NCBI RefSeq assembly: GCF_003610535.1
Contig: NZ_RAPN01000001.1
Span: 620,001 to 684,000 of the forward strand
DNA length: 64,000 bases
Reading direction: 5' to 3'
Source of the DNA: Mangrovibacterium diazotrophicum
Lineage (GTDB): Bacteria; Bacteroidota; Bacteroidia; Bacteroidales; Prolixibacteraceae
The position numbers and the translations under genes are program-made. The notes beneath the pieces are model-generated. The model was given only the letters and a program-made list of their open reading frames with translations. It was not told the origin of the DNA and searched no databases. Below, in pieces: positions 51,554 through 59,270 of the stretch; the first letter of the stretch is position 1; each line of letters begins with the position of its first letter.

Positions 51554-51570
51554 AGCTTACCGTGTAAGCT
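51554..51570 (-). terminator. Small hairpin between convergent queE and efflux operon ends
   Basis: AGCTTAC (51554-51560), loop CGT, GTAAGCT (51564-51570): a 7-bp perfect stem overlapping the minus-strand stop codon. On the minus strand TTCTTTAG follows, so it could end the efflux operon; it is short. Confidence 0.45.
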
Positions 51571-52426
51571 GGTATGCGATTCCCACTTTCAGGAAAAAGC
51601 CTTCATCTGCATATTCGAAAAACGGATCTACTTTCGATGGCGTCAGATTGGCTCCTACTTCCCATGTTGCCTGTTCCGGTTTCTGATAAAGCTTCAATTC
51701 GCGCTTAAAACTATAGCCGGCTTGGCACGATAGCCACCATTTGCGAATCATCCGGAGATCAGTAAACCAGCTCAAATTTTGCTCGCGAAACCACAGGTAG
51801 TCAAAATCGGCATAACCAGACACATGCGAGATCTGCCGGTTGCTAGACGCAACTAGCCCCATTTTCAACCCCCCGGCAACTAACCATTGCACACGAAGCC
51901 GCATTGGCAAATCAGCATTCAGCTCAAAATGATCATTAGGGATCCAGTGAAATCCCAGCATCGGAACAATTAAGTTACTCTTAAACCGATTGGCATAAAT
52001 CACTCCCAACCGATAGCTGAAATGACGATTTTGCAAACGGGTAAAACTCAAACCGGAGGTCCAGACAAAAGAATTCATCGAGAGTTCGTCAGTCGACGAG
52101 GAAAAGGCCGGCATAATCAGCGCAACCCAACTCCAACTCTCGTTGATTGTATGCCTCCAAACAGTATTCAGCGACAACTCATAAAACCGCTGCTCCGAAA
52201 ACGGAAACCCGTCGTCCAGATTTAGGAATTGATATCGTGGAGCAAGCACAAGCTGGTCTGTCTGACGACGGAGCACGGGAAAAGCCAGCTGAATATCGCC
52301 ACTTGCGCCAATTTCTGACTTTCCCCTGGTCGGAACAAAATCGGCCGAAAAAACCGAAAGAGATTGCGAATAGCCTGCTAACGGGAAAAGCAACAGCAGG
52401 CAAACTATTTGAAATAATTGCTTCAT
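51557..52426 (-). CDS. Outer-membrane beta-barrel protein (DUF6268-like)
   Basis: The ATG at 52426 starts a signal peptide (MKQLFQIVCLLLLFPLAGYSQ); the 64 codons before it overlap the ATPase gene and are not protein-like. 289 residues. The mature part alternates aromatic strands and turns and ends FFLKVGIAYQLTR, with Tyr/Phe near the C-terminus, typical of outer-membrane barrels; DUF6268 is the closest family I can suggest. It is the last gene of the efflux operon and may be a sixth component or only share the transcript. Confidence 0.65.
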   Translation of the reverse strand: MKQLFQIVCLLLLFPLAGYSQSLSVFSADFVPTRGKSEIGASGDIQLAFPVLRRQTDQLVLAPRYQFLNLDDGFPFSEQRFYELSLNTVWRHTINESWSWVALIMPAFSSSTDELSMNSFVWTSGLSFTRLQNRHFSYRLGVIYANRFKSNLIVPMLGFHWIPNDHFELNADLPMRLRVQWLVAGGLKMGLVASSNRQISHVSGYADFDYLWFREQNLSWFTDLRMIRKWWLSCQAGYSFKRELKLYQKPEQATWEVGANLTPSKVDPFFEYADEGFFLKVGIAYQLTR

Positions 52427-52448
52427 GGCTCGAGAATAGAAATTGAAT

Positions 52449-53138
52449 TCAATACAAAATATTACCGTCCGCCATTTCGATCGTCCGATCTGTGTTTCGG
52501 GCGAAATCGTTGTCGTGGGTGACACAAATGATGGTTTGCCCAAACTCGCGGGCCAGGTTGCGGAAGATATCCTGCACAACCAGTGAATTTTTGCTATCGA
52601 GGTTACCGGTTGGCTCATCCCCCATAATAATCGACGGCTGATTGATCAGTGCACGTGCAATTGCGACACGTTGCTGCTGACCGCCCGAAAGCTTATTGGC
52701 TTTCTTCAATGCCTCTTGTTCCAGGTCAAGCAGTTTCAGATTTTCATAAGCCCGATGCTCAATTTCTTCAACCGAGTCCTTCCCCAGTTTCAAAGCAGGA
52801 AGCATCACATTCTGCAAAGCCGAGAATTCAGGAAGCAGGTAGTGAAACTGAAAAACGAATCCAATGTGTTCGTTTCGGAATGCTGCCAGCTGATTCTGAC
52901 TTCGACCGGTCAGTAGTTCACCATTAAACTCAAGCCGCCCTTCGTAGTCCGTATCCATAGTGGAGAGCACGTAGAGCAAGGTGGATTTGCCCGAGCCCGA
53001 CTTCCCGATAATCGAGAGAAACTCTCCTTTCTGCACGTCGAACGAAACGCCTTTGATCACCTGGAAGGTCTTGGGATCGTGAAAATATTTAATGAGATTT
53101 TGCACTCGCAGTGCGCTGGTTGTCTTAGTTGTTTCCAT
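52449..53138 (-). CDS. ABC transporter ATP-binding protein (MacB/LolD-like)
   Basis: 229 residues. Walker A GKSGSGKS (45-52), Q-loop region in GFVFQFHYLLPEFSALQNVMLP, signature LSGGQQQRVAIARAL, Walker B IIMGDEPTGNLDS and H-loop CVTHD. It belongs to the lipoprotein/macrolide-exporter class (LolD, MacB ATPase half). It lies 3 bp downstream of its permease and should power the tripartite export system with the HlyD-type adaptor and TolC. Confidence 0.93.
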   Translation of the reverse strand: METTKTTSALRVQNLIKYFHDPKTFQVIKGVSFDVQKGEFLSIIGKSGSGKSTLLYVLSTMDTDYEGRLEFNGELLTGRSQNQLAAFRNEHIGFVFQFHYLLPEFSALQNVMLPALKLGKDSVEEIEHRAYENLKLLDLEQEALKKANKLSGGQQQRVAIARALINQPSIIMGDEPTGNLDSKNSLVVQDIFRNLAREFGQTIICVTHDNDFARNTDRTIEMADGNILY

Positions 53139-53141
53139 GTT

Positions 53142-54407
53142 TTATCCTCTGATAATGACCACCGGGTCGATTTTTGAAGCTTTCCGTGCAGGCAAGTAAC
53201 CGGCAAGCAAGGTTGTTGCAATGCCAAATGCCAGGGCAGCAACAAAATCCTGTAGCTGGTAACTGATTGGCAGTGTTGATAGTCCTGCAATTTTGAATGG
53301 GATCCTATGAACTAGCGACGAGATCCCGTATCCCAACCCCACTCCTGTTATTCCACCGACAAAGCCAATAACTGTAGCCTGAGTCAGGAAAATGCGCAGG
53401 ATATCCTTGCCCGAAAACCCCATCGCTTTCAGAATGGCGATTTCCCGGATCTTCTCATTAATCGTCATGTTCATGATGTTGTAAATACCAAAACCTGCTA
53501 CAATCAAGATGGTCAGCGACACTGCAATGGCTATGATATTACGCAACTGTGATCCGGCCACCATTTGCTGATTGGCCGTTTGCCACGACTCAACCTGATA
53601 AGGAACCAGAGGTTCCAACCTTCGAACAATTTCGGCCGTTCTGTCTTTATCATTCAGGTTTAGCTGAATATCGCTGGAATAATCGAAATTTTCGCCCTGC
53701 AACTGCCGGGCTGTGGTGATATTGAGGTAGGCCCGCGATTTGTCGATATCTTTCACCGAGGTTTCGATCAAACCAAGTACCTCGTAGTTCTTCGAGACTC
53801 CTTCCGGAGTCATAACATTGACATTATCGCCAACATTCACATTAAGTTTTTGGGCCAGTACTTTACCCAAAATGATTCCGGACTTTCGGGTTTCGAGCTC
53901 ATTCCAATCGCCTTCGACTACTTTGTCGGCAATTCCAAATAACTCGTTCTCGCCCAACACGTCGACCCCGGAAATACTGCCATTGATTTTCTTCGACCCA
54001 TTGCGGAAAAACACACTGAAATTTAATTGCGGTGTTACACCGGCCACCTCCGGCTGCTTCTCCACAATTGAAATGATCCGGGATGTATTTTTAATGCCTT
54101 CTGTATACTGAATGCTTTTGCGGTTGCGCAAATTAACGAGAGTATTCGCCTCCTGAAAGACATCATTTACCGGATCGTAAGTCCGAACTTCATCGTCGTT
54201 GTAAATACGAACGTGTGCCAGAGTACTAAAAGCCAAATCATCCTGGGTCGCATTCACCCCATTCATAAAACTATTCATGAAAATGTACATGGACACGCCA
54301 AAAGTGACCCCGAGCACAGCGACAAAAGTCTGCCAGATTTTGGATGTCAGGTGTACGCCTGCAATTTGCCGGTTCACCTTCGAACCTTGTTTTTTTTGTT
54401 TGCTCAT
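53142..54407 (-). CDS. ABC transporter permease (MacB_PCD + FtsX)
   Basis: 421 residues: one N-terminal membrane helix (about 28-48), a large periplasmic domain (50-280; MacB_PCD type, with VDVLGENELFGI and SGIILGKVLAQKL), then three helices of the FtsX domain (about 288-415) with NEKIREIAILKAMGFSGKDI and the closing YLPARKASKIDPVVIIRG. This is a mechanotransmission-type permease, probably exporting drugs, peptides or lipoproteins. Its stop is 3 bp before the ATPase, and its start overlaps the adaptor stop by 4 bp. Confidence 0.92.
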   Translation of the reverse strand: MSKQKKQGSKVNRQIAGVHLTSKIWQTFVAVLGVTFGVSMYIFMNSFMNGVNATQDDLAFSTLAHVRIYNDDEVRTYDPVNDVFQEANTLVNLRNRKSIQYTEGIKNTSRIISIVEKQPEVAGVTPQLNFSVFFRNGSKKINGSISGVDVLGENELFGIADKVVEGDWNELETRKSGIILGKVLAQKLNVNVGDNVNVMTPEGVSKNYEVLGLIETSVKDIDKSRAYLNITTARQLQGENFDYSSDIQLNLNDKDRTAEIVRRLEPLVPYQVESWQTANQQMVAGSQLRNIIAIAVSLTILIVAGFGIYNIMNMTINEKIREIAILKAMGFSGKDILRIFLTQATVIGFVGGITGVGLGYGISSLVHRIPFKIAGLSTLPISYQLQDFVAALAFGIATTLLAGYLPARKASKIDPVVIIRG

Positions 54408-55498
54408 GATTTCTGTTTTTCGATGACGTCACCTTCATTCAGTCCACCAATAATCTCAACCCACTCGGAGGTTTCAATTCCTGTCATCACTTTAATAGAG
54501 CTGTTGTGTTTTTCACTGAAGACTTGTTCTCCGGGCTCCAGGTAGTCGGCAGGTATAACCAGCGCCCCTTTCTTTTCCGCCACCACAATATTCGATTGCA
54601 GCTGGGTCCCCGATTTCAGGGAAGGTACTTTCTCGGTGAAAACCGCTTCGGCAATGAAGGATTGCTCATTGGTATCGAAAGCCGGGTAAACCTTCGAGAT
54701 TCGGGCTGAATAGGCATGATTGCGATTTGTATTCAGTTCGATATAAACCGACTGCCCCACTTCAACGCGATTGATGTCCTCCTCCGCCACCTGCAAACGG
54801 GCAATATATTGGCCTGCTCCAATTTCGGCGACCGTTTCACCGCGTTTTACCAGTTCGCCATCTTCTTTGAAACGCTGCAGTAGCAGCCCGTTAACCTGGC
54901 TCGTCATCAGAAAATGCTCACTGTTTTCCTGCTGTGCGACCAGATTGGCTTTCGCATTTGCCAAATCAAGTCGAAGAGTCCGTTTGGTATCCTCAATCGT
55001 ATTCTGAATGGCTTTGTATTCCGATTCGGAGTTCTCACAAGCTAACTTCGACCGGTCGAACTCTGCTTTCGACACGGCATTTGCCTGAATCAAATTCGAA
55101 TATCGCACAAAGTTCACCGAGTCGTTTTGCCATTGATTCTTCAACTGCATTTCCTGCTGATACAATTTCTGCAAAACCGGCGAACCACTCCGCAAATTGT
55201 CCTGCGCTTTCTGATAAGCAATTTCAGCACTTTCCAACTGCGCTTTGGGTGTTTTATCCTGCAACTGGAAAAGCAATTCCCCGTTTTTCACCGAGTCGCC
55301 TTCCTCTGCAAACGAATGTTGCAAATATCCCTCCGATAGCGACGTCACCAGGTAACGGTCTTTCGTGACGATATTTCCGCTGGCAAAGACAGCATCAACC
55401 AGATCTTTCCGTTGTACGGTCGTCTTTTCCTTCATTTGGCATCCGGTGGCGCCCCACGCCAGAACGGCCACCAGGTATAAAATTGATTTTGAGTTCAT
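54404..55498 (-). CDS. Membrane fusion/periplasmic adaptor lipoprotein (HlyD/MacA-like)
   Basis: 364 residues with a lipoprotein signal (MNSKSILYLVAVLAWGATGC, cysteine at 20). A split lipoyl/barrel region (SEGYLQHSFAEEGDSVKNGELLFQLQDK and GLLLQRFKEDGELVKRGETVAEIG) flanks a long coiled-coil hairpin (about 85-170). C-terminal beta domains follow. It should bridge the inner-membrane permease and TolC. Overlaps the permease start by 4 bp; the TolC gene ends 9 bp upstream. Confidence 0.9.
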   Translation of the reverse strand: MNSKSILYLVAVLAWGATGCQMKEKTTVQRKDLVDAVFASGNIVTKDRYLVTSLSEGYLQHSFAEEGDSVKNGELLFQLQDKTPKAQLESAEIAYQKAQDNLRSGSPVLQKLYQQEMQLKNQWQNDSVNFVRYSNLIQANAVSKAEFDRSKLACENSESEYKAIQNTIEDTKRTLRLDLANAKANLVAQQENSEHFLMTSQVNGLLLQRFKEDGELVKRGETVAEIGAGQYIARLQVAEEDINRVEVGQSVYIELNTNRNHAYSARISKVYPAFDTNEQSFIAEAVFTEKVPSLKSGTQLQSNIVVAEKKGALVIPADYLEPGEQVFSEKHNSSIKVMTGIETSEWVEIIGGLNEGDVIEKQKS

Positions 55499-55507
55499 TG
55501 TTTCTTC

Positions 55508-56818
55508 TTATTGTTTTCTGGATTCGAAAATGACTTTGTAACTTAAAAATTCAGATAAGGCGTTCAGGTAATTGCTTTCGGCAGCCAGGTAATCGTCAAA
55601 CACCTTGAGGTAGGCATCCATGCTAATCAATCCCTCGTCGTACTTTAAAGCCGCCAGTTTTAAATTATCGGCTGTTAAACTGAAGGTTGACTCTCCCGAC
55701 TGTGCAATTTGTCGGTTGCGCTGCATCTGACGGTAGGTCAGCTGATCGTTGATCGCTGATTTCCGGCTTTCGTTGGCATAGTTCTGCCCTGCAATTTCCT
55801 GTTTCAACTTCGCCGACCGGTAATTGGATCGATTGGCCATTCCGTTGAAAATCGGAATTGAAACCGATAGGCCGATGTAACTATTGGCATTCCAATCGCC
55901 AGACTTGAACGAAAAAGCAAGCTCGTCCTGAAACTGGTTGGCTCCCCAAAAACCATTCAGTTTTAAGTCGGGTAAAAATGCAGCACCAGCTTTCTTCTTC
56001 TCCGCAAAAGCATAATCGGTCTGTAACTTGAAGACATTGGTATAAGTGCTGTTGGCTATTAAATCAGGCAAACCATCAGAAGCCATTTGCACGGAAACTG
56101 TTTCGTCCAGATGCAGCTCATCAGAACTTTGTAAGCCCAACAAAATTTTCAAGTTGCTCAGGCACTCATCCTGGTATTGCATTGTTGCCTCCAACTGCTG
56201 CGCGATTGTATTCCGACTAATTTTCGCCTGGTTCAGTTCCAGCGCATCGATTGTTCCCTGCGCGAAACGATCTTCAGACAGCGACAACAAAGTATCAGCC
56301 ACCGCCAGATCATGTTCGCCGATTTCGGTCGCTTTTATCGCCGTCAGCGCCGCATAATACAATTGACCCAGTTGCTGCTTCAAATCCTGTTCAAAATAGT
56401 CGCGATTGGCCTCCTGCAACTCCAGATTGGTCGTCGCCATTTTCGACTGGTAAATTTTTTGCCAGTTCAATACATTGTAATTGACTGTTACACCGGCTGC
56501 ATAGTTGTACTTCTTGCCAAATTTCATATTGATGGTTTCGCCCGGCTGCCCCAGCAGTTCGCCAGGTACAGGCGTAACCGAAAGATCAATATTGTCCTGC
56601 CCGCTCGCCGCTGCCGATACCGTTGGGAAAAGAAAACTCCGGGCAGCATTCCTATCCTGTCGGGCCTGTTCAACCTGCAACAACCGAACGTTGTAGTCAG
56701 CATTCTGCTTCAATGCAAATCGCCAAACCGAGTCGAGTGAGCTGAAGACATATTGAGCATTGGCAACTACAGCTCCCTGAAGCAGAAAAAGCACGATGAG
56801 TAAAGATTCCTTTTTCAT
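55508..56818 (-). CDS. TolC family outer-membrane efflux protein
   Basis: 436 residues with a signal peptide (ending VVANAQ). It has long helices with the OEP pattern twice (about 25-200 and 235-430), including QVEQARQDRNAARSFLFPTVSAAASG and GLSVSIPIFNGMANRSNYRSAK, the PIFNG turn typical of TolC repeats. Forms the outer-membrane and periplasmic tunnel of the export system. The start overlaps the DUF2147 stop by 4 bp. Confidence 0.93.
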   Translation of the reverse strand: MKKESLLIVLFLLQGAVVANAQYVFSSLDSVWRFALKQNADYNVRLLQVEQARQDRNAARSFLFPTVSAAASGQDNIDLSVTPVPGELLGQPGETINMKFGKKYNYAAGVTVNYNVLNWQKIYQSKMATTNLELQEANRDYFEQDLKQQLGQLYYAALTAIKATEIGEHDLAVADTLLSLSEDRFAQGTIDALELNQAKISRNTIAQQLEATMQYQDECLSNLKILLGLQSSDELHLDETVSVQMASDGLPDLIANSTYTNVFKLQTDYAFAEKKKAGAAFLPDLKLNGFWGANQFQDELAFSFKSGDWNANSYIGLSVSIPIFNGMANRSNYRSAKLKQEIAGQNYANESRKSAINDQLTYRQMQRNRQIAQSGESTFSLTADNLKLAALKYDEGLISMDAYLKVFDDYLAAESNYLNALSEFLSYKVIFESRKQ

Positions 56819-57240
56819 GATGCTTTACTCCAGATTTTAGTGGAAGTAAACGGTCCTTTCGAAATCTCCAGGTGAAGTTTGCCCTCGCTGATGTAGACAC
56901 AGCAATTTGCGTAAATACCACGGCCGGGCGCGTAAATTTTACCTTCCGTCCAGGTCTCACCATCAAAATGCAGCCCGGTGATGATCGTCATTCCCAAAAC
57001 CGGCTGATCCCGCTTTGTTTGGTCCGGATTGTGACGATCCAGTTTGGGGTTTCCCTGGGAATCTGAGGGCTCGGCCATCCAAACAATCCTGGCCGAATAA
57101 GCATCTTCTGTTTTCTGAAATTCAATCGTCGATGTTTTTTCCTCATTTGTCCATTTACCCAGCAAATCTTCAGGTCCCGCTTGCGCCGTCAGGCCGAAAC
57201 TTTCGGCAATACAAATGACGAATAGAATAAATTGTTTCAT
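56815..57240 (-). CDS. DUF2147 family secreted protein
   Basis: The ATG at 57240 starts a signal peptide (MKQFILFVICIAESFGLTAQA); an upstream ATG at 57252 would add four residues. 141 residues. DUF2147 features: LLGKWTNEEKTSTIEF, then YSARIVWM, DQPVLGMTIITGL and EGKIYAPGRG. The domain is a small beta fold of unknown function, often in lipid or organic-ligand contexts. It is the first gene of the efflux operon and directly downstream of the LytTR-type repeat. Confidence 0.82.
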   Translation of the reverse strand: MKQFILFVICIAESFGLTAQAGPEDLLGKWTNEEKTSTIEFQKTEDAYSARIVWMAEPSDSQGNPKLDRHNPDQTKRDQPVLGMTIITGLHFDGETWTEGKIYAPGRGIYANCCVYISEGKLHLEISKGPFTSTKIWSKAS

Positions 57241-57308
57241 GTCTCTGTGCATTTAGTTTTCGTGCACAAAGGTGTTGCTCAACGTCTGATTCGGGAAGTA
57301 GTTTTGCG

Positions 57309-57338
57309 ATGAACTGAACAAATGCGGCGGTGAATTGA
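57309..57338 (-). promoter_or_regulatory. LytTR-type direct repeat upstream of the efflux operon
   Basis: Read on the minus strand, TCAATTCAC (57338-57330), a 12-nt spacer and TCAGTTCAT (57317-57309). The second copy fits the LytTR-domain consensus [TA][AC][CA]GTTN[AG][TG] at 9 of 9 positions, the first at 7 of 9. The 12-bp spacer is the one described for AgrA/LytR-type sites. It lies 69-98 bp upstream of the DUF2147 start codon. A possible -7 box (CACCTTTG, 57274-57267) fits activation from these sites. Confidence 0.65.
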
Positions 57339-57345
57339 ACAGCTA

Positions 57346-58104
57346 CTAAGCCTGTTCAACCCAACTGAGGAATGGCGTCACTTTCAGGCGGCTAACGACG
57401 AGCTTTTCCGACAATTTAAGCGGTACCTTTACAACCATCTTTCGGTTGAAATAAGGCTGAATTTCAACAATCGCGTTGCGGTTTAGAAGCACCTGCCGGT
57501 TGATTCGATAAAACATGGCCGGGTCGAGCGAGCTTTCCATTTCATCCAAGGTTTTGAAAACGGCGTGCTTTTGGTCATCGAAGCGATAAGCGTAAAGCAC
57601 TTCATCTTCCAATGCAAACAATGCAATTTGATTGACTGGGACCGGGATGTAACTCTCCCGGTAACGAATCAGCACCGTACTTTTGTAGGATTTCTTCTCG
57701 GTAAATAACTGCTGAATGGATTGCATCACCTGCTGATCGTTTTTGAACGCTGACGCCAGTTTATCAAGTTTGTCAAAAGCAGCTTGCACATCTTCTTCGC
57801 GCACAGGTTTCAACAGGTATTCAATCCCATTCGATTTAAAAGCCTGCAACGTATATCGATCGTAGGCCGTGCAAAAAATGACCGGACATGCCACTTCAGT
57901 CCTCGAAAAAATCTCGAAACTCAAACCATCAGCCAACTGGATGTCCATAAAAATGACATCCGGCTTATTCGTTTGTAAAAAACGAACAGTCTGCTCAATG
58001 CTTTCGGTAGTCCCGACGAACTCAGCGCTGGGTTTTATTTCTGTAATTAACTCGGCCAGTAAATCGGCTGTCTGCGGCTCATCTTCAACAATTAAAATCT
58101 TCAT
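57346..58104 (-). CDS. LytTR-family response regulator
   Basis: 252 residues. Receiver domain 1-120 with acidic E7/D8, phospho-acceptor D54 (IFMDIQLADG), T79 (FCTAYD) and K99 (YLLKPV). A linker leads to a LytTR DNA-binding domain (about 140-248) with IRYRESYIPVPVNQIALFALEDEVLYAY and MFYRINRQVLLNRNAI. It is encoded 4 bp overlapping its kinase and directly upstream of the efflux operon, where a matching direct repeat lies. Probable activator of that operon. Confidence 0.93.
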   Translation of the reverse strand: MKILIVEDEPQTADLLAELITEIKPSAEFVGTTESIEQTVRFLQTNKPDVIFMDIQLADGLSFEIFSRTEVACPVIFCTAYDRYTLQAFKSNGIEYLLKPVREEDVQAAFDKLDKLASAFKNDQQVMQSIQQLFTEKKSYKSTVLIRYRESYIPVPVNQIALFALEDEVLYAYRFDDQKHAVFKTLDEMESSLDPAMFYRINRQVLLNRNAIVEIQPYFNRKMVVKVPLKLSEKLVVSRLKVTPFLSWVEQA

Positions 58105-59138
58105 GGTTCCAGCAAATTTAAGCGTACCCGAAATATTTCCTCATCCTGGTAAATAAACACCGCATCGGGCATGACCAACAACTTGTAGCGCTCAACCAAA
58201 TTCGCCAGCCCATAGCCTGAATTTTCTTCCTTGGTTATCTTGGGTTGAATTCGGTTTTCCACGGTAACAAAATGGTCGGAAGCAAATATTTTGATTTCAA
58301 GCGGCTTTTCCGAAGAAATCATGTTGTGCTTAATGCCGTTTTCCAACAAAAGCTGCAGACTAAAGGTCGGCAGCCGGTGCGCCAAGAATTCCTCAGGAAC
58401 ATCAATTTGTATTTTGAGGTTCTCGCGAAAGCGACTCGACAGCATAAAGCAGTAATCGTGAACAAAATCCAGTTCTTCTTTCAGCGTCACCGTGTCTTTC
58501 TCTCGCTTTAAAAGTAGCTGGCGGTAAATTTCAGAAAGCTTCAGAACGAATTCTTCCGAGTTCGCTTCTTTTGAGCGAATCATCGATCGCAATGTCGATA
58601 ACGAATTAAACAGGAAATGCGGATTAACCTGCTGTCGAAGAATCTCGAACTGCGAACGCAAATTCTCTGTTTTAAGTTGTTCATTCTGCAAAACCATCTG
58701 TTGTGTCCGTTGATTGGACCGGATGGCATATTGGATCAAATAAATGAGGCCGATGCTGACGGCTGCTTTCAAACTAACCAACCACAAACTGTAATGATCT
58801 CTCGGGTCTTCGAAGGGCGTTACAATTTCGCGCATCAGGTATACCGCCAGAAAAACAAAAACAGCCAATAATATGGCGTTGACAAACAAAACGAAAAGCA
58901 GTCTTGCCAATTTTGAAGTCAACTGCTTCCGACGTTCATGGAGCCGTACCAACCAAGCATTCACATACCAACTAATCATCAGGAAACAGAACGTCAGCAA
59001 ACCGTTAAAAAGAATCTTACCGAAACTCATGTCGAGCCGGTGCTGGCTAACGATGATGATGTTGAACACCGGAAGGAACGCCGAAAATAAGACGGCGATT
59101 TTCCAGTCACCTTTGAATATGGCTGATAGTTTTAGCAT
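58101..59138 (-). CDS. LytS/YehU-type sensor histidine kinase
   Basis: 345 residues. Four membrane helices (about 10-155) with short loops, a coiled coil, then the His_kinase domain: QVNPHFLFNSLSTLRS (phospho-acceptor H in NPHF), N-box LQLLLENGIKHN and glycine box GYGLANLVERY. There is no large sensor domain, so the ligand may be sensed in the membrane, as for drug- or peptide-responsive kinases. Overlaps the LytTR regulator by 4 bp, forming a two-component pair. Confidence 0.92.
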   Translation of the reverse strand: MLKLSAIFKGDWKIAVLFSAFLPVFNIIIVSQHRLDMSFGKILFNGLLTFCFLMISWYVNAWLVRLHERRKQLTSKLARLLFVLFVNAILLAVFVFLAVYLMREIVTPFEDPRDHYSLWLVSLKAAVSIGLIYLIQYAIRSNQRTQQMVLQNEQLKTENLRSQFEILRQQVNPHFLFNSLSTLRSMIRSKEANSEEFVLKLSEIYRQLLLKREKDTVTLKEELDFVHDYCFMLSSRFRENLKIQIDVPEEFLAHRLPTFSLQLLLENGIKHNMISSEKPLEIKIFASDHFVTVENRIQPKITKEENSGYGLANLVERYKLLVMPDAVFIYQDEEIFRVRLNLLEP

Positions 59139-59231: not shown

Positions 59232-59270
59232 AAAACAAAAAAGCCACCAGCTGGCTGAAAGCTGGTGGCT
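59232..59270 (-). terminator. Intrinsic terminator after the GH2 gene
   Basis: Arms AGCCACCAGCT (59242-59252) and AGCTGGTGGCT (59260-59270) form an 11-bp perfect stem. On the minus strand it is followed by TTTTTTGTTTT. It also lies upstream of the kinase gene at 59138, insulating it. Confidence 0.9.

Follow-up and report, generated by a model that had tools for sequence, protein, structure and literature searches.

LytTR regulators and their operators in known systems

The operators of LytTR regulators are defined as direct repeats of 9-11 nt that lie 11-13 nt apart, although the family has no common consensus (PMC4847170), and the classical LytTR domain contacts DNA via the motif FhRhHRS (PMC4227749). 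In Escherichia coli the LytS-type kinase YpdA and the LytTR regulator YpdB (PyrS/PyrR) form a two-component system with a single known transport target, yhjX, in the promoter of which YpdB binds GGCATTTCAT direct repeats (PMC4847170). In the K-12 sequence these repeats are exactly 21 bp apart and have the same TTCA end as the boxes described here. Within the Bacteroidota, LytTR operons of Bacteroides carry 11-bp direct repeats 11 bp before a promoter of the type TGTA/TGTG-19-TATCTTTG (PMC6193735, Table 3). A third related case is AgrA of Staphylococcus aureus, which also has a LytTR domain and a direct repeat upstream of its promoters P2 and P3, the promoter-proximal repeat being centred near -60 (PMC4227749). 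AgrA and other Gram-positive operators follow the consensus [TA][AC][CA]GTTN[AG][TG]. A published LytTR operator of a Bacteroidota two-component system did not turn up in the literature that we searched.

The locus analysed here lies in a 64-kb stretch of the Mangrovibacterium diazotrophicum genome (the window) and contains a kinase, a LytTR regulator, a direct repeat and an efflux operon, all on the minus strand:

59242-59270, minus strand: terminator-like hairpin (11 pairs, 7 of them GC, T tail) that separates the kinase gene from a glycoside hydrolase gene upstream
58101-59138, minus strand: sensor histidine kinase with a His_kinase domain (PF06580), about four predicted membrane helices and no recognised sensor domain (Pfam and hydropathy)
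57346-58104, minus strand: LytTR response regulator with receiver D54 (PF00072) and a LytTR domain with FYRINRQ (PF04397), predicted to bind the boxes
57330-57341, minus strand: predicted operator box 1, TGTTCAATTCAC, promoter-distal half-site
57309-57320, minus strand: predicted operator box 2, TGTTCAGTTCAT, promoter-proximal half-site, 21 bp from box 1
57267-57274, minus strand: predicted -7 element CACCTTTG of the Bacteroidota type (consensus TANNTTTG), whose start is 34 nt past box 2
56815-57240, minus strand: DUF2147 protein (PF09917), first gene of the predicted operon, start backed by orthologues
55508-56818, minus strand: TolC-family outer membrane efflux protein (PF02321)
54404-55498, minus strand: periplasmic adaptor of the HlyD/RND_mfp family (PF13437; TIGR01730 above cut-off)
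53142-54407, minus strand: MacB/LolCE-like permease with FtsX and MacB_PCD domains (PF02687, PF12704; below equivalog cut-offs)
52449-53138, minus strand: LolD/MacB-like ABC ATPase (PF00005; LolD model 249.8 bits against a cut-off of 307.75)

The layout of the E. coli YpdB site and of the Bacteroides LytTR operons is nearly the same as that of the site at 57309-57341, which is very probably the operator through which the adjacent LytTR regulator activates the efflux operon, as judged from sequence comparison.

The direct repeat between regulator and efflux operon

A preliminary description had pointed to a 9-12-9 direct repeat with 9/9 and 7/9 matches to the LytTR consensus, located between the regulator stop at 57346 and the operon start at 57240. 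Both the repeat and its flanks are found as described, with the repeat on the minus strand, where positions 57338-57309 read TCAATTCAC-CGCCGCATTTGT-TCAGTTCAT. TCAATTCAC agrees with [TA][AC][CA]GTTN[AG][TG] at 7/9 and TCAGTTCAT at 9/9 positions, with a 12-nt spacer, and alignment of the orthologous starts best places that of DUF2147 at 57240. However, a consensus scan of the 64-kb window gave 10 matches of equal quality at 12-nt spacing, so that agreement with the consensus has no significance by itself and would not carry the claim of an operator. The self-repeat is stronger evidence: the 12-mers TGTTCAATTCAC and TGTTCAGTTCAT share 10/12 bases at exactly 21 bp. When the 93-nt gap is shuffled, a self-match as good as this at period 21 arises in only 0.11% of cases. 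The conserved unit is also longer than the 57309-57338 originally given, namely a 12-9-12 direct repeat TGTTCANTTCAC-N9-TGTTCANTTCAC with a 21-bp period at 57309-57341 of the minus strand (12-mers at 57330-57341 and 57309-57320), and it contains two direct repeats of 9-11 nt at a distance of 11-13 nt, as is the layout of LytTR operators. The G to which box 2 owes its 9/9 score is not conserved and occurs in only 2/7 orthologous loci, and the Gram-positive consensus is loosely kept here. Since TTCA is the most constant part of the boxes in the wider family, the original register can stand, without the consensus G.

Conservation of the site with the operon

Seven loci from six families of one order were compared, i.e., the present one and those of G029, G101, G132, G198, G355, and G364. 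In the six further genomes, which belong to other genera and families of the order, the site always recurs 5' of the DUF2147-TolC-adaptor-permease-ABC operon. The order kinase, regulator, site, DUF2147, TolC, adaptor is maintained in five of them (G029, G101, G198, G355, G364), and permease and ABC genes come next wherever the contig extends, that of G355 stopping within the adaptor gene. In G132, where regulator and operon are about 4 kb apart, the site lies in front of DUF2147 instead of behind the regulator, which shows that it is linked to the operon rather than to the stop codon of the regulator. The intervening DNA includes another kinase-LytTR pair, encoded on the opposite strand (L157, 3290-5004).

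The boxes and the -7 element are conserved against diverged flanks. Mean pairwise identity over the seven loci is 93% for box 1 and 83% for box 2, and the -7 element is 93% identical, whereas the 9-nt spacer, which is variable apart from its last two T, reaches 37% over its seven variable columns. Similarly, the 34 nt from box 2 to the -7 element show 42% identity, with a length that is unchanged in all seven loci. A chance match to the consensus in intergenic DNA, which ten equally good matches per 64 kb would otherwise suggest, is thus extremely improbable: conservation and fixed geometry in seven genomes have already refuted it, and the rarity of the period-21 identity among the shuffles also speaks against it.

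Promoter and sign of regulation

The -7 element CANNTTTG begins exactly 34 nt past box 2 in 7/7 loci, so that the site lies just upstream of a core promoter. As the sigma-A -7 consensus of Bacteroidota, TANNTTTG, is placed at -12 to -5 (PMC9723704), the boxes come to lie at about -79 to -47, with a predicted transcription start at about 57262. At the usual -33 place upstream of this -7 element no TTTG is present in the orthologous loci, as would be expected of an activator-dependent promoter. Sigma-70 consensus promoters were left aside, as their matches here are at chance level. The predicted promoter is of the Bacteroidota sigma-A type, unlike that of E. coli yhjX. Summing the distances given for the Bacteroides LytTR operons (PMC6193735) leads to 34 nt from the repeat to the -7 element, identical to the locus described here. 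The architecture has therefore been put on record before, having been predicted for a LytTR system of another type in the phylum. In both cases the repeats are about two helical turns apart, but the period is 22 bp in the Bacteroides system and 21 bp here. Furthermore, the Bacteroides operons encode a membrane LytTR protein together with another membrane protein instead of a two-component pair.

Activation of the operon by the regulator is plausible, because the site is situated just upstream of a promoter without recognisable -33 element. As evidence for a binding site says nothing on the sign of regulation, the operator could be real and the regulator could nevertheless repress, or act both ways, at the efflux promoter. 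This is unlikely, since the site is upstream of the promoter and not over it, since the expected -33 TTTG is not seen, and since LytTR regulators bound at a like position activate, as is the case for AgrA near -60 (PMC4227749) and for YpdB at yhjX.

A terminator was looked for between the genes of the regulator and DUF2147 and not found, and read-through from the kinase-regulator genes may therefore express the efflux operon as well. The hairpin at 59242-59270 suggests that kinase and regulator are transcribed from their own start.

Regulator, kinase, and efflux genes

The regulator contains a receiver (PF00072) and a LytTR domain (PF04397), both above the Pfam cut-off, and its D54 and RINRQ are invariant across five orthologues. 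Compared to FhRhHRS, the contact motif FYRINRQ retains the F and both R, whereas H is replaced by N and S by Q. Close orthologues of the regulator are present in few genomes of the same order; a search of 395 genomes of the class (E <= 1e-70) gave no orthologue beyond the order, and no relative was found in the viral contigs searched. The regulator is 29% identical to YpdB over nearly the full length. The two differ in the 5' half of the box, which is TGTTCA here and GGCA in the YpdB site, and in the target, which is an MFS gene elsewhere in the genome for YpdB and the neighbouring ABC efflux operon here.

The kinase had been designated LytS, which applies only loosely. YpdA is a LytS-type kinase (PMC4847170), but for the kinase here Pfam gives only His_kinase PF06580, and the LytS sensor domain (5TM-5TMR_LYT) is absent; hydropathy suggests about four membrane helices. 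The suggestion that the pair senses a membrane-active compound or export stress stays a guess that no evidence supports.

ATPase, MacB_PCD/FtsX permease, adaptor, and TolC protein occur together as in MacAB-TolC or LolCDE-like ABC efflux gene sets. The ABC parts are nearest to the LolD/LolCE and MacB models, but do not reach the equivalog cut-offs for MacB, LolCE, and LolD. A literature search on DUF2147 yielded no function. The ABC gene is followed by a DUF6268 gene (51557-52480, minus strand), which may be the last one of the operon. Behind the operon there are relatives of it in G029 and, more weakly, in G101 too, and a terminator-like hairpin is located at 51554-51570.

Essentially one site per genome

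When 393 genomes of the order were scanned for the two-box pattern, allowing at most one mismatch, nine of them gave a match. Six of these nine matches are located at the efflux-operon locus, whereas the reversed-pattern control gave 0. The matches at L140, L143, and L144 were set aside as unrelated, with neither DUF2147 nor the regulator nearby. At L143 distant TolC and adaptor proteins are encoded, but the match lies inside that coding sequence. In the operon holders G000, G029, G101, G132, and G198 the sole site with at most one mismatch is the one before the efflux operon. Looking for further copies of the repeat in the organism's own genome, as had been proposed, gave this one site, the next best having three mismatches. 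The looser pattern TTCA-17-TTCA-35/36-A..TTTG was discarded as a genome-wide regulon pattern, as it is too unspecific in AT-rich genomes.

With receiver or LytTR candidates being numerous in each genome (about 30 at first look in the own one), another DNA-binding protein, e.g., a LytTR paralogue, could bind the repeat, and its adjacency to the regulator would then be incidental. This is highly unlikely, as 6/9 of the matches adjoin a close orthologue of the regulator as well as the operon, while the other three are near neither, and as the site is present essentially once per genome. The two-component system looks dedicated to one operon, like YpdB to yhjX. Before the kinase gene no copy of the site is present in the orthologous loci examined, and there is thus no sign of autoregulation through a site of the 57309-57341 type, whereas the LytTR operons of Bacteroides are proposed to autoregulate.

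More distant LytTR regulators of the phylum

The comparison was extended to 80 loci of less closely related regulators from the phylum (L060-L139). Repeats of 12-mers near these regulators peak at a period of 21, with 31 cases against 2-18 at the other periods from 15 to 30. TTCA-ended sites followed by A..TTTG at 33-37 nt make up 15/43 at period 21 and 3/208 at the other periods (Fisher P about 2e-10, an optimistic value, since many loci are from closely related Flavobacterium and the counts are not independent). The offsets of these period-21 sites are 34 or 35 nt. The 5' half-box differs among the loci (TGTCCA, TGTCCG, TTCACG, TTTCGC, and others), and most of the regulators show F-h-R-x-N-[RK]-Q in place of FhRhHRS, a motif that may mark a LytTR subfamily of Bacteroidota with TTCA-ended boxes. 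Their targets, named by reading the sequence and not by family search, comprise alpha/beta hydrolases, cupins, a small membrane protein family, an RND-type adaptor, and an AraC-like regulator.

The Flavobacterium loci L063, L064, L065, L070, L072, and L074 each have one to three direct repeats of the type TGTCC[AG]NTTCA, and Mucilaginibacter L066 has the same type as TGTCTG/TGTCCG. These repeats are located 34-35 nt before the -7 element of alpha/beta-hydrolase, cupin, and small membrane protein genes, and together with the LytTR regulator nearby they apparently constitute a multi-operon regulon. In Myroides (L107, 6808-6840) a LytTR regulator and the RND-type adaptor gene behind it have a TTCACGCTTCAG repeat between them, which makes a second case of a LytTR system adjoining an efflux system.

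It is conceivable, albeit at present somewhat doubtful, that these features reflect a code valid across the phylum, in which regulators with F-h-R-x-N-[RK]-Q would use TTCA-ended boxes of 21-bp period, always 34-35 nt upstream of the -7 element, and in which each regulator would owe its specificity to the 5' half of the box (TGTTCA, TGTCCR, and others). If this is true, the target operons of many uncharacterised systems would be readable from sequence.

Proposed mechanism and significance

From the arrangement of the locus we infer that the adjacent regulator binds the site, that binding activates the operon, and that both depend on phosphorylation. The membrane kinase (58101-59138) would phosphorylate D54 of the regulator, whereupon two LytTR domains would bind next to each other at the two TGTTCANTTCA boxes, which, being two helical turns (21 bp) apart, would present the same DNA face just 5' of the promoter. 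The bound domains would then recruit RNA polymerase to this promoter, in which a -7 but no -33 element is recognisable, and the DUF2147-TolC-adaptor-permease-ABC operon would be switched on as a result. The central part of the preliminary description, a LytTR site tying the two-component pair to the efflux operon, is thus upheld by the conservation of the site with the operon in seven genomes, its fixed distance to the promoter, and synteny.

The link between predicted operator and operon is well supported, but a fairly ordinary regulatory link. What it adds to the known architecture is a member of the two-component type that is coupled to an ABC efflux operon, along with strong evidence of conservation and the TTCA box. 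A testable regulatory unit is thereby defined, consisting of one two-component system, one putative operator, and one efflux operon in several families of the order. Moreover, the rigid spacing, with a repeat period of 21 bp and 34 nt from the repeat to the -7 element, recurs at more distant regulators and provides a practical rule for finding the targets of the many LytTR systems in this phylum, including those adjoining efflux pumps.
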